Shown: in pieces, positions 6,316-27,899 of the stretch
Position numbering within the stretch: position 1 is the stretch's first letter
Layout of the letters: the number at the start of each line of letters is the position of its first letter
NCBI RefSeq assembly: GCF_030418295.1
Contig: NZ_JAUHQA010000001.1
Location: 1,984,001-2,048,000 of the forward strand
Length of the DNA stretch: 64,000 nt
Source of the DNA: Demequina muriae
Lineage (GTDB): Bacteria > Actinomycetota > Actinomycetes > Actinomycetales > Demequinaceae
Reading direction: 5' to 3'
Notes under the pieces: model-generated
Seen by the model: only the letters and a program-made list of their open reading frames with translations
Database searches by the model: none
What the model was told of the DNA's origin: nothing
Made by a program: the position numbers and the translations under genes

Positions 6316-6732
6316 TCATGCCGCCCAGTCGTCGCCGCCGGCGAGCCGCTTCGCGAGCGCCTCGGTGAGCGGCATGGATTCGCCGTCGCGTGCCCCGCGG
6401 CCGAGCTCGAGCGGCGGCTCGCCCGGATCGAGCGTCACGCCTCTGACGAGGCCACGGAGGCTGCGCGGGGCCGACATCACGTAGAACTCGCCATCGGTGC
6501 CGACGGCGACGCTCCTGTCCCGCTTGAGGTACCAGCCCTCGTGAGTCGTGCGCAGACGGGACCTGCCATCGTAGGTGCGTGCGGTGAGCCGCTCGGGCGT
6601 CAGCCCGGCCGCAGCCGCGTCGGCAGCGAACTGGCGCACCAGCTCGGCGGCGCGGCGCGTCTCGCCCTGCCGCTGGCGCTCGAGCGCCTGTGCACGCCTG
6701 AGGTGCGGCGAGACGGGCGAGTCGTCGGTCAT
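6316..6732 (-). CDS. Conserved hypothetical protein, partner of the coiled-coil gene
   Basis: A 138-residue protein that I do not recognise. The first 45 residues are charged and helical (HLRRAQALERQRQGETRRAAELVRQF is typical). The rest looks like a small alpha/beta domain with GWYLKRDRSVAVGTDGEFYVM and a final acidic/basic helix. Its start lies 28 nt after the stop of the large coiled-coil gene, so it is probably in the same transcript. That makes it a candidate partner of the coiled-coil protein, but this is inference from position only. Confidence 0.65.
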   Translation of the reverse strand: MTDDSPVSPHLRRAQALERQRQGETRRAAELVRQFAADAAAAGLTPERLTARTYDGRSRLRTTHEGWYLKRDRSVAVGTDGEFYVMSAPRSLRGLVRGVTLDPGEPPLELGRGARDGESMPLTEALAKRLAGGDDWAA

Positions 6733-6760: not shown

Positions 6761-9265
6761 TCACCCGCGGTCCGCAGCGGGGGTGGATTCCGGCTCGGAC
6801 GTCTCGTCTGCCGACGCGGCGGACGGTGCTGACGCGGCAGACGGCCCTGAGTCGTCCTTGGAGGCGGCGCCGGCGGCCTTCTTGAGGCTCGCCACGGGGT
6901 CCGCTCCGAGCAGCCCCCGCAGGTCGTCCAGGTACCCGGTGATCGATTCGCGCTGACGGTTGAGCTCGTCGACCTCGTGCGAGGCGGCGTTGCGCTCGCG
7001 CTCCGCGTCGGACACGGCCTCGGAGATGATCGACTCCGCGTGCTCGCGGGCGCCGGAGACGATCTCGTCCGCGTTGTTGCGGGCGTTGGTGAGCAGCGTC
7101 TGCGAGTGGACCTCGGCCTCCCGTCGCACCGTCTCCGCACGCTCCAGAGAGGCGCTGAGCCGCTCCTCGGCCTCATCTGCGCGTCGGCGTGCATCGGCGA
7201 CCATCTCGGCCCCCTCAGCCTGTGCCTCCGCAAGGCGCCGGCTGAGATCCTGTTCGGCCTTCTCGCGGCGCTGCGCGATCTCGACCTGCAGGTCTTCGCG
7301 GGTGCGACGGGCCTCCTCGCGGGCGGCCTCGGCGTCGGCATGGGCCGCGGCACGCTCTTCCTCGCCGTCCTTGCGGGCGACCGTGAGGATCTGCTTGGCC
7401 TCGGCTTCGCCATCGGCGACGCGCTGCTCCGCCTGCGCTTCGCCCGCCGCGATCGTCTTGGCGGCGTCGCGGTCGGCGGCGTCGCGCGTCTGCTGTGCGT
7501 AGGCGTCCGCCTCCCGGCGGGTGGTCTCGGCGTAGACATCCGTCTCGTTGCGCAGGTGGGCGTCGTAGTTCTCGGCCTCTCGGCGCACACGCGCGGCGTG
7601 GTCGTCGGCCTCTCCGCGAGTGGTCTGGGCGTAGTCGTCCGCCGCCTTGCGCGTGGTGACGTCGTACCCGTCGGCGTCCTTCCGGACTCCTCGTGCGTAC
7701 GTCTCGCCCGCCTCACGGGTGGACAGCGCGTACGCGTCGGCGCCCTGGCGGGTGTCGGTGTCGTACTGGTCCGCTGCCGCGCGGGTGGCGGCGGCATCGT
7801 CGTCGGCCGATGCGCGGGTGCCTTCCGCGTAGGTGTCGGCTGCGGCTCGGGTCTCGTCCCCGTACTGGTCGGCGTCCGCACGCGTCGCCTGGTCGTACTC
7901 GTCGGCAGCGGCGCGGGTGGCGGCGGCATCGCGATCCGCCGAGGCGAGGGTGTCGTCGCGGTACTGGTCGGCGTCCGTGCGCTTCGCCTGGTCGTACTGG
8001 TCGGCTGCCGCCCGGGTCGCGGCCGCATCGTCGTCGGCCGATGCGCGCGTGGCATCGGAGTAGCGGTCCGCGTCGGCGCGGGTCTCGGCGTCGTAGGCGT
8101 CCGCGTCGGACCGCAGCGCGGCGATGTCGGCGTCCGCCTGGGTGCGGATCTCCAGGGCCGCACGGTCGGCGTCGCCCACGGTCGTGTCGCGGTACGCGTC
8201 CGCCGCGGCGCGCGTGTCTGCGCGATAGCTGTCCGCCTCCCGGCGGCTTGCCGTCGCGTAGTCCTCGGCGTCGCCGCGAGTGAGGTCGTCGTACTCGTCG
8301 GTCTCGGCGCGCAGCGCATCGGCTTCGCGCTGTGCCTGCTGGCGGAGCTCGCGGGCTGCGATCTCGGCGTCCGCGCGGACGGCCTCGGCATCCCGGTTCG
8401 CCTGGGTCAGGAACGTCTGCGCCTCGTTGCGCATGCTGGCCGCCTGCGAATCGGCGGTGGTGCGAACGTCGGAGGCCTCCGCCTCAGCCGCGGCGAGGGC
8501 GTCGGCCGCTTCGGTCGCGATCGCCTTGGCCTCGTCACGCGCTGCCGCCAGAGCCGCGTCGGCCTCGCCGTGCAGTCGGTCGGCATCCTCCTGAGCGCCC
8601 TGGACGAGGGCATCGGCCTCGCCGCGCGCGTTGTCGAGCAGTTCCGTGGCCTCGCGCTGAGACGTGACACGCAGTTCCGTGGCCTCGCGCTCCGCGGTCG
8701 CACGCAGCGTGTGGGCCTCGCGATCGGCCGTCGCGCGCCGCTCGGCGGCCTCGGCCTCCATCGCGGACGACAGCCGCTCGGCCTCCCGCCGGGCCTTCTC
8801 CACGATCTCCGCGGCCTGGCGCGATGCGGCGTCGCGGACGTTGGTGGAGTCCGATTCGGCCGCGGTGCGGATCTCTTCCGCTTCGCGGCGGCTCTGCGCC
8901 AGGATCTCGGCGACCTCGTTGTCGGCGCGTGCGCGCAGCTGCTGAGCCGCGACGTTGGCACGCGCGACGGTGTCCTGCGCGTGGGTGTTCGCCCGCTGGA
9001 CCACGTCGGACGACTGCTCCTCGGCGGAGCGCAGCAGCTGCTCCACTCGCGCGCCCAGTCCCTTGTAGGTGGGCTGTTCCGACTCCCGGAGACTGCGCTG
9101 TGCGTCGTCGAACTGAGCGCGGATCTGTGCCGCGTCGTGCTGTGCCTGCTGCGCGGTGGACTGGGCTTCTCTGACCGAGTCCTCCAGCCGCGCGATGTGC
9201 GCAGCGACGGCTTCGCGGTCGTACCCGCGCATCGCTACTGGAAAGGGCAGGGTCTCATCAGGCAT
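6761..9265 (-). CDS. Scy/DivIVA-like long coiled-coil protein
   Basis: An 834-residue protein that is almost entirely coiled coil. Residues about 5-35 (FPVAMRGYDREAVAAHIARLE) match the DivIVA/Wag31 N-terminal domain, which binds curved membrane. From about residue 190 the sequence runs in 11-residue units, very regular at 318-603 with the pattern TRxxADxYxxx. Hendecads with DivIVA-like heads are known in Streptomyces Scy, which organises polar growth with DivIVA and FilP. I infer a cell-pole or envelope scaffold role. The start ATG 9265 has GAGAGGAG 7 nt upstream. A long open frame on the opposite strand is an artefact of the repeats. Heptad interruptions are visible in the earlier region. 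Confidence 0.85.
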   Translation of the reverse strand: MPDETLPFPVAMRGYDREAVAAHIARLEDSVREAQSTAQQAQHDAAQIRAQFDDAQRSLRESEQPTYKGLGARVEQLLRSAEEQSSDVVQRANTHAQDTVARANVAAQQLRARADNEVAEILAQSRREAEEIRTAAESDSTNVRDAASRQAAEIVEKARREAERLSSAMEAEAAERRATADREAHTLRATAEREATELRVTSQREATELLDNARGEADALVQGAQEDADRLHGEADAALAAARDEAKAIATEAADALAAAEAEASDVRTTADSQAASMRNEAQTFLTQANRDAEAVRADAEIAARELRQQAQREADALRAETDEYDDLTRGDAEDYATASRREADSYRADTRAAADAYRDTTVGDADRAALEIRTQADADIAALRSDADAYDAETRADADRYSDATRASADDDAAATRAAADQYDQAKRTDADQYRDDTLASADRDAAATRAAADEYDQATRADADQYGDETRAAADTYAEGTRASADDDAAATRAAADQYDTDTRQGADAYALSTREAGETYARGVRKDADGYDVTTRKAADDYAQTTRGEADDHAARVRREAENYDAHLRNETDVYAETTRREADAYAQQTRDAADRDAAKTIAAGEAQAEQRVADGEAEAKQILTVARKDGEEERAAAHADAEAAREEARRTREDLQVEIAQRREKAEQDLSRRLAEAQAEGAEMVADARRRADEAEERLSASLERAETVRREAEVHSQTLLTNARNNADEIVSGAREHAESIISEAVSDAERERNAASHEVDELNRQRESITGYLDDLRGLLGADPVASLKKAAGAASKDDSGPSAASAPSAASADETSEPESTPAADRG
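7457..8314 (-). repeat. About 26 tandem 33-bp (11-residue) hendecad units
   Basis: Units such as TRAAADQYDQA, TRADADQYGDE and TRASADDDAAA follow one another without gaps from residue 318 to 603 of the coiled-coil protein. Thr-Arg occupies positions 1-2 and Ala-Asp positions 5-6. The DNA repeats diverge at third positions, so selection is on protein, not on DNA. Confidence 0.9.
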
Positions 9266-9405
9266 GCTGGTCTCCTCTCGCGCGGTCGGAACTGGCCGCG
9301 CGGTCCGTTCCCCAGGGTAATGCGCGGCCTGAGGTGAGACAAAGCGGCATCGTGCGACGTTACCCCGTTGTCTCTTAGAGTGGACGCGTACATCTGGAGG
9401 TTTGT

Positions 9406-27200: not shown

Positions 27201-27899
27201 GTCGCCGATGCGGCAGCGGTGGACCGTGAGCAGTTCACGGCAGAGTCGCTGGCCGATCTCGATCTTGCGGTCGAGCGTGGCGAGATCGTCCTGGCGTCGT
27301 CGTTCACGTCGCAGGCGGATGTCGACGCGGCGGTCGATGCGATCGTGGCTGCCATCGACGGCCTCGTCGCGGTCGAACCGACGGATCCCACGGACCCGAC
27401 GGACCCGACGGACCCGACCGATCCGACCGATCCGACCGATCCGACCGATCCGACCGATCCGACGGACCCGACCGATCCGACGGACCCGACCGATCCGACC
27501 GACCCAGGCACAGATGAGGTCCAGATCCAGGTCTCGGACTCGACGCTGCGCCCAGGTGACGAGGTGACCATCACGGTCGCAGGTGTCACCGGTGACACCG
27601 TCGAGTTCGGCGTCGCGAGCGAGTATCAGCGGCTCGCGACGGTGGCTGTCGTCGACGGCGTGGCCACCGCCACGGTGACGATCCCTCTCGATCTCGCGCC
27701 CGGCGTGCACCACCTGATGGCGCTCGACGCCGAGGGCAACGTGCTCGCAGAGTACGAGATCACGGTGCTGGCCGCCGCCGAGGGCGACGGCGCACTGTCG
27801 GAGACGGGAGCGGAGATCCTCGCTCCGCTCGCGGTCGCGCTGCTCCTGCTGGCGGTCGGCGGAGTGCTGGCACTGCGCTCGCGCCGTCAGGAGGTCTGA
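24276..27899 (+). CDS. ganB: Cell-wall-anchored GH53 endo-beta-1,4-galactanase
   Basis: A 1207-aa secreted enzyme cutting beta-1,4-galactan of pectin side chains. Order: signal peptide (to about 33, ASAAE); GH53 barrel with acid/base in QIGNE (E194) and nucleophile in VAEVSW (E295); Big_4-like bacterial Ig domain (about 430-505); CBM61-like jelly roll (NLVINGGFEDADVSMW); FIVAR helical repeat; second Big_4; second carbohydrate-binding-like domain (WIENGGFEKG); second FIVAR; (DPT)n linker; a further Ig-like domain; LSETG (1174-1178), membrane helix and SRRQEV tail. LSETG is a sortase signal of the actinobacterial LAxTG type. ATG 24276 is preferred because AAAGGA is 7 nt upstream; an ATG at 24270 is only 1 nt away from it. 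Confidence 0.93.
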   Translation: MALRHRLRAVTATAAASALAVTGLVTTASAAEDEPIDAGITVPKVEGMGEGWINGVDVSSVLSLEESGVVFRDDSGAEADLFEVLADNGVNWVRVRVWNDPWTADGDGYGGGNTDAARATEIAERATAAGMRVLVNFHYSDFWAHPGQQQLPKAWKDLDTVEERAAAVRAYTATTLQQMEDAGVDIGMVQIGNETTPNASEQIVEVGGWDDFATVVSAGSAAVREVVPDAQVAVHFTNPERGNHPSFAAALDERGVDYDVFLSSYYPFWHGSLEDLTSSLNTIAQTYDKDVAVAEVSWAYTLEDGDGHENTIRTQYDQYSISVQGQALAIRDVMQAVANVENGRGIGTFYWEPAWLPVGPPDALASNQQLWEQHGSGWASSYAGEYDPADAGVYYGGSSWDNQALFDFDGYPLESLKVYDYAVTGSVAPREVDSVSSPSITVFDDEAVILPSTVTVRYTDGTSESVPVTWSANAEWITGTGLYTVNGTAGDDIAATATVEVLSSATAGENLVINGGFEDADVSMWEGTGSGFTIRRAEDPYTGSQSTHWYSASANSFEIAQTLTDVPAGTYRLSAYLQGGGTGPEDSVTLYAQHGISTVSAPATVEGYEVWQNPTTPLLSVSEGGTVDIWIEWDLSAGAWGTLDDVSFVLGADLPDADTGALEALVSEAEAVDRDAYSAASVVDLDRALRRASFVLGSSAPSQDAVDGATAQLQSAIDGLEEGDGGVPDPTVQPVSVTVVEGEEIVLPSTVTVTAYDDSTSTESVVWNDVLDLITSPGDYTVTGTTKNGWKATATITVTERNWIENGGFEKGTDDVSPWTITAGDEWPDAAVGTAWVAAYADIEGDFALNGWSDATAGPDFWISAAQTTAELPAGTYELSAISAGGNDVTGGAAATTYDLGVWDGSAYLTDELALLGWPTQDEGTVEFTLDEPTTVDVSVSADIVRGDWSYVDDVTLTRIADADTSVDTSALEAAVADAAAVDREQFTAESLADLDLAVERGEIVLASSFTSQADVDAAVDAIVAAIDGLVAVEPTDPTDPTDPTDPTDPTDPTDPTDPTDPTDPTDPTDPTDPTDPGTDEVQIQVSDSTLRPGDEVTITVAGVTGDTVEFGVASEYQRLATVAVVDGVATATVTIPLDLAPGVHHLMALDAEGNVLAEYEITVLAAAEGDGALSETGAEILAPLAVALLLLAVGGVLALRSRRQEV
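27376..27507 (+). repeat. Asp-Pro-Thr tandem repeat (9-bp units)
   Basis: About fourteen DPT units are encoded by GAC/GAT-CC(C/G)-AC(G/C) codons, forming a stiff wall-spanning linker of the galactanase. The short near-identical units can change number by slippage. Confidence 0.9.

Follow-up and report, generated by a model that had tools for sequence, protein, structure and literature searches.

Proteins of the FilP family are among the few bacterial intermediate-filament-like proteins. The family is defined by a pair of conserved motifs that start its first two coils, and its relatives from Streptomyces, Janibacter and Mycobacterium assemble into filaments in vitro (PMC2680258). Rods of FilP, about 37-40 nm long, are thought to be dimers joined head-to-head and tail-to-tail, forming filaments with a 60-nm repeat as well as meshworks (PMC6599971). 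Normal growth and morphology depend on FilP, which also adds to the mechanical strength of hyphae (PMC2680258), and DivIVA interacts with both FilP and Scy (PMC11571769). Differing coil lengths were noted for the family by Bagchi et al. (PMC2680258), and growth of FilP by hendecads has already been proposed, the FilP/Scy group ranging from under 200 to over 1000 residues (Martinez-Goikoetxea and Lupas, PMC9858780).

Here we describe a long FilP-type coiled-coil protein of 834 aa from Demequina muriae, assigned by sequence and homology. In the window, the whole stretch of 64,000 nucleotides that was analysed, its coding sequence occupies 6764..9265 on the minus strand (as do all features of the locus given below), with a stop codon at 6761-6763, an ATG start at 9265 and, on inspection of the sequence, an AGGAG ribosome site (9272-9276). 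Compared with D. aestuarii, a close relative among the named relatives at this locus, the protein is 100% identical over its N-terminal 110 and C-terminal 175 residues, yet about 30% of four-fold degenerate sites differ, which marks the 834-aa frame as coding; further long open frames overlap it and are most simply taken for side effects of G+C-rich repeats. Profile searches of Pfam and NCBIfam found no domain family above its cut-off, and a search of solved structures with the whole 834-aa protein gave no match. Pfam matches to apolipoprotein and HrpE lie under their cut-offs and are attributed to the composition of 11-residue helical repeats. The profile searches and predicted helices describe a segmented coiled-coil rod without any other known domain, as expected of FilP.

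Both motifs of the family, their letters taken from an alignment with Streptomyces FilP, are present as RGYDxxxV and P(S/T)YxGLGxRxExxLR, with the spacing seen in Streptomyces FilP. The first, aligned as RGYDREAV at residues 13-20 (9206..9229), belongs to the DivIVA-like head, and its R13, G14, D16 and V20 are invariant across FilP-type proteins, Streptomyces FilP included. The second starts the second coil after a linker where the helix is predicted to break (residues 62-66); linker and motif together span residues 62-84 by alignment (SEQPTYKGLGARVEQLLRSAEEQ; 9014..9082), and P65, Y67, G69, L70, G71, R73, E75, L78 and R79 are invariant across FilP-type proteins. Within the scy-filP regions of Streptomyces, the best match is FilP (E 5e-16 to 2e-12), a distant one at about 30% identity; matches to Scy leave out the head and fall in the rod alone. 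The gene order atpD - nucS - filP - thioredoxin/TPR gene is collinear with that of a Streptomyces genome, in which the distances are larger, and parts of the order recur in other members of the order to which D. muriae belongs. A genome search found filP in single copy in D. muriae. Judged from the sequence, the gene is the filP orthologue of Demequina.

An earlier note on this DNA had called the protein Scy-like and DivIVA-headed. That description holds insofar as we find a DivIVA-like-headed hendecad rod related to Scy, but the protein is of the FilP type, scoring 28.7 bits against the Scy model NF041483 (cut-off 1040) with FilP as its best Streptomyces match. In a tree of the head region, where internal support is mixed and long branches are present, Scy occupies its own branch and the D. 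muriae protein groups with FilP-type proteins of its order. The rod also departs from the mixed hendecad/heptad pattern of Scy, with its 51-residue repeat: 366 residues pass without a register shift, as against longest hendecad runs of 113-125 residues and about 33 shifts each in five Streptomyces Scy proteins, which were parsed with a model trained on themselves. The claim of an uninterrupted run longer than that of Scy is therefore upheld, while model score, head sequence and register pattern rule out membership of Scy itself.

One might still picture a Scy-type polar organiser, its rod lengthened in parallel, that recruits ParA or other partners along that rod and fills the role of Scy in Streptomyces; the non-canonical coiled-coil part of Scy is indeed bound by ParA (PMC3718342), and the longest Demequina orthologue, that of D. 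pelophila at 1182 aa, nears the roughly 1300 residues of Scy. Set beside the weak match to the Scy model, however, are a head and second motif that are those of FilP, an array without the mixed pattern of Scy, and the finding of Scy in a single genus out of 115 sampled in 297 genomes, and we regard such an organiser as improbable. This bacterium lies outside the Scy-bearing genus. Membership of DivIVA is not indicated either, the protein scoring 17.2 bits against PF05103 (cut-off 28); a separate DivIVA, at 59 bits over that cut-off, is encoded elsewhere in the D. muriae genome. With one RGYD motif across 834 residues, the protein also falls outside PolyDIV, which has at least two DivIVA-like domains. 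A frame of 354 residues at G000:C1:1351123-1351278 (L008) gives a weak match to the DivIVA profile and has Ala/Lys-rich helical repeats and a probable membrane segment.

The array that first drew attention to the protein lies at 7457..8314 (residues 318-603) and consists of exactly 26 units of 11 residues, TRxxADxYxxx, where about 26 had been reported; over these units T1 occurs 18 times, R2 24, A5 23, D6 23 and Y8 19. Identity at lag 11 is 0.407, compared with 0.149 +/- 0.020 in shuffles (maximum 0.229, n=5000). Cyclic profiles of period K were learned from less closely related Demequina species and then applied to the D. muriae protein, which had been withheld; the array scored a log-likelihood of 180 at K = 11, without a register shift, and at most 2 at K = 7-10, 12-15 and 18. 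Fourier peaks of hydrophobicity over the array fall at 5.48, 2.74 and 3.68, corresponding to 11/2, 11/4 and 11/3, and period 11 thus prevails, as had been proposed. The unbroken register exceeds the reported array, for the register parse and period test place the longest one-register hendecad run at residues 289-654 (366 aa; 7304..8401). With the core taken as positions a, d, e and h, the unit has T at a, A at e and Y at h.

Looser hendecads flank the array, again as the earlier note had it, at residues 63-251 and 655-768. The register parse identifies the former (8513..9079) as a first run of the canonical (L/I/V)RxxAxxxAxx type. The latter falls within a conserved C-terminal rod segment (residues 655-787; 6905..7303), defined by register parse and alignment, whose heptad-type register shifts are similarly spaced in the FilP orthologues of most of the families examined; in the majority of FilP-type proteins from other families, one 4-shift and two 8-shifts recur there with almost constant distances between them. 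An AlphaFold2 model from 17 orthologues, folded as a monomer (pLDDT 69, pTM 0.28), predicts helices at residues 17-61, 67-278, 286-424 and 443-787 with a linker at 62-66, followed by an unstructured tail at residues 801-834 (6764..6865; pLDDT under 50). Within the array, confidence is low over the stretches 423-443 and 580-584. Folding a single chain of a presumed dimer may itself have produced the predicted breaks at 279-285 and 425-442; a passage in PMC11676326 names spuriously bent coiled-coil models as a limitation of AlphaFold2-type prediction. Repeats of 11 residues can in principle build other folds, and a beta-solenoid or a disordered Asp/Ala-rich spacer might be suspected from the low confidence at 423-443; nearly all of the array, however, is predicted helical, its register runs on into the canonical hendecads at either end and the shifts are heptad-sized, which leaves a fold other than a coiled coil very improbable indeed.

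The coiled-coil rod varies greatly in length within the genus. Together with the D. muriae protein, 34 complete single frames from named Demequina-type loci provide 35 orthologues of 443-1182 aa. The head and C-terminal segment align readily across Demequina, and almost all of the length difference resides in the middle, which, measured between fixed anchors at residues 110 and 616, takes 24 distinct lengths. These form four classes by their remainder modulo 11, which is 10 in 16 proteins, 2 in 13, 6 in five and 0 in one. A tree from which the array was left out shows about five changes of class, and absolute length differs among many close relatives. A Viterbi parse of the 35 proteins, from residue 60 to the C-terminal RESIT motif, models 229 register shifts, which recur at homologous sites in related proteins and so do not count as independent events; all except one (228 of the 229) are of +4 or +8 positions, the effect of one or two heptads replacing hendecads. 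Proteins of class 6 generally have one more net 4-shift than those of class 10, and proteins of class 2 have two more, so that the heptad-sized shifts explain the modulo-11 classes. With 0.1485 nm allowed per residue, the rod (head motif to RESIT) is about 113 nm long in D. muriae and 52-167 nm across the genus. In the loci of D. sediminis and D. litorisediminis (L117 and L127) the filP head and C-terminal segment lie in different open frames, reflecting either a frameshifted gene or sequence errors in the repeat.

Comparison with D. aestuarii points to recent change in the middle. Residues 1-344 and 521-790 are 98-100% identical between the two species, whereas identity falls to 80% in the fast-changing core (residues 345-520; 7706..8233), where the D. 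aestuarii protein is also longer by two stretches, one of 11 and one of 22 residues. The array DNA contains tandem repeats of 33, 99 and 132 bp, the latter two forming part of the evidence for this core, and we infer slippage or unequal recombination between 33-bp units as the simplest mechanism of array growth and loss. Such turnover could be neutral: FilP would then carry an inert array drifting in length by DNA slippage, with only the ends of consequence and no role for tyrosine or length. Slippage alone yields whole-hendecad steps, and for that reason the quantised lengths demonstrate a preserved register but not selection for it. The 80% identity of the array to the sister species, beside 99-100% for the ends, fits this reading, as do several long orthologues with few or no Tyr units and the 443-aa protein of L104 (contig PHEW01000009.1), in which the array is nearly absent and the filP head, C-terminal segment and neighbouring 138-aa gene are kept. 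On the other hand, nearly all Demequina retain at least 329 middle residues, and FilP orthologues of other families also have long hendecad rods, of up to 479 residues; both observations suggest a degree of pressure to stay long. We rate neutral turnover as a serious contender that stays somewhat short of an even chance; at about that level, length drift would stand as an addition to the FilP identification, not as a replacement for it. Elsewhere in the window, outside the filP locus, a tandem array at 27374-27505 has an 18-bp unit in about seven copies with 91% match (CCGACCGATCCGACGGAC).

Long runs in one register reach 479 (G521), 426 (G455), 404 (G419) and 361 residues (G523) in FilP-type proteins from other families of the same order, and about 150-250 residues in other FilP-type proteins of the order. 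Tyr units likewise occur outside Demequina in some FilP orthologues of other families, such as ADQYAAFVRATADREV, and these runs and units together rule out uniqueness to Demequina. Within the genus an orthologue has from 0 to 26 Tyr units. Orthologues with middles of 589 to 706 residues have none or one (D. aurantiaca and D. oxidasica, each with a middle of 589, have one), so tyrosine is not required for a long middle. The tyrosine-marked stalk of the earlier note is a fair description of this protein, with Tyr at position 8 in 19 of 26 units, but not a defining property: the long orthologues with no or one Tyr unit, together with the Tyr units of other families, dispose of Tyr as a hallmark. 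A bolder reading, which we consider unlikely, makes Demequina FilP an evolvable molecular ruler, in which selection in one-hendecad steps of 1.6 nm sets the spacing of the subpolar mesh by species and, through it, cell-end stiffness or width, and Tyr at core position h provides an alternative packing that allows very long uninterrupted hendecad dimers.

Directly beside filP, at 6316..6732, is the gene for a conserved 138-aa protein of unknown family, which adjoins filP on the same strand in all complete-frame Demequina loci (34/34; gaps estimated from alignment starts). The two genes had been described as transcribed together. Their adjacency and common direction agree with this, but co-transcription is suggested by arrangement, and no promoter or terminator consensus was found for the pair. 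As a candidate partner the small protein is weak: in other families its homologue is adjacent to filP in G035, G036 and G353, lies on a different contig from filP in G032, G037, G352 and G031, and is present in G034, where no FilP N-terminus was found. The separate contigs and the occurrence in G034 also weaken the case for a distinct system built with the 138-aa protein. The protein belongs to a conserved family of the order with invariant A28, G66, W67, D72, Y84, G98, G111, G113, D116 and G117, and its model (pLDDT 93) comprises a long helix, a small beta sheet and a C-terminal helix; a search of solved structures gave nothing at E <= 0.001, nor did any Pfam family reach its cut-off.

Taken together, we think it highly probable that the protein is a dimer of the FilP type, its conserved ends separated by a hendecad spacer that tolerates changes of length but keeps its register, and that it presumably assembles into a subpolar filament or mesh. 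By analogy with FilP biology, Demequina FilP would form a parallel dimeric coiled coil, the DivIVA-like head and the conserved C-terminal segment would join rods head-to-head and tail-to-tail, and the resulting subpolar filament or mesh would work alongside the cell's separate DivIVA; both the location in the cell and the assembly into filaments are presumed from the better-known relatives. The sequences show that the spacer expands and contracts by whole 11-residue units, probably through unequal recombination or slippage between 33-bp DNA units, with out-of-register products presumably lost. Whole 11-residue steps let head and tail hold one helical phase while rod length changes. Since added hendecads lengthen the rod without turning head against tail, the assembly interfaces should survive and the mesh spacing should grow. 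The distinct cytoskeletal system proposed earlier is not borne out: FilP is already a described intermediate-filament-like family, and a separate new system is not needed.

As far as our search goes, the new elements are the very long uninterrupted runs, the Tyr/Asp-rich unit and the within-genus series of whole-hendecad lengths with heptad-sized shifts. No paper in the literature library searched names both Demequina and DivIVA. The Martinez-Goikoetxea/Lupas group has reportedly made a broader hendecad survey, which may already include some of these proteins. Demequina offers a natural series of 443-1182 residues with near-constant ends, differing mainly in hendecad number, which allows a direct test of how rod length relates to filament repeat and to cell mechanics, with the 443-aa filP of L104 as a natural control without the array. 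Very long uninterrupted hendecads with a Thr/Ala/Tyr core pattern are also material for coiled-coil structure work.

Among known systems, PolyDIV (Martinez-Goikoetxea and Lupas 2023) shares the actinobacterial DivIVA-like superfamily with this protein but has 2 to 8 head motifs to its one. DivIVA / Wag31 (PF05103, NF050102) has the head motif and first short coil in common with it, and the score lies under the Pfam cut-off. Scy (NF041483) shares the DivIVA-like head (RGYD/RGYE), the long hendecad rod and the size range; the D. muriae protein, however, is far under the cut-off of that model, its head and second motif are those of FilP, and no second FilP/Scy-type gene stands alongside. The closest counterpart is FilP itself (SCO5396 of Streptomyces coelicolor, in an actinobacterial family that includes Janibacter JNB03975), with which it has in common both N-terminal motifs, a helical hendecad rod, the gene neighbourhood and the lack of any other domain. 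It differs from FilP in a rod of about 113 nm, compared with about 40 nm in Streptomyces, in an uninterrupted 366-residue hendecad run with Tyr/Asp-rich units, and in whole-hendecad length variation inside one genus, Demequina.
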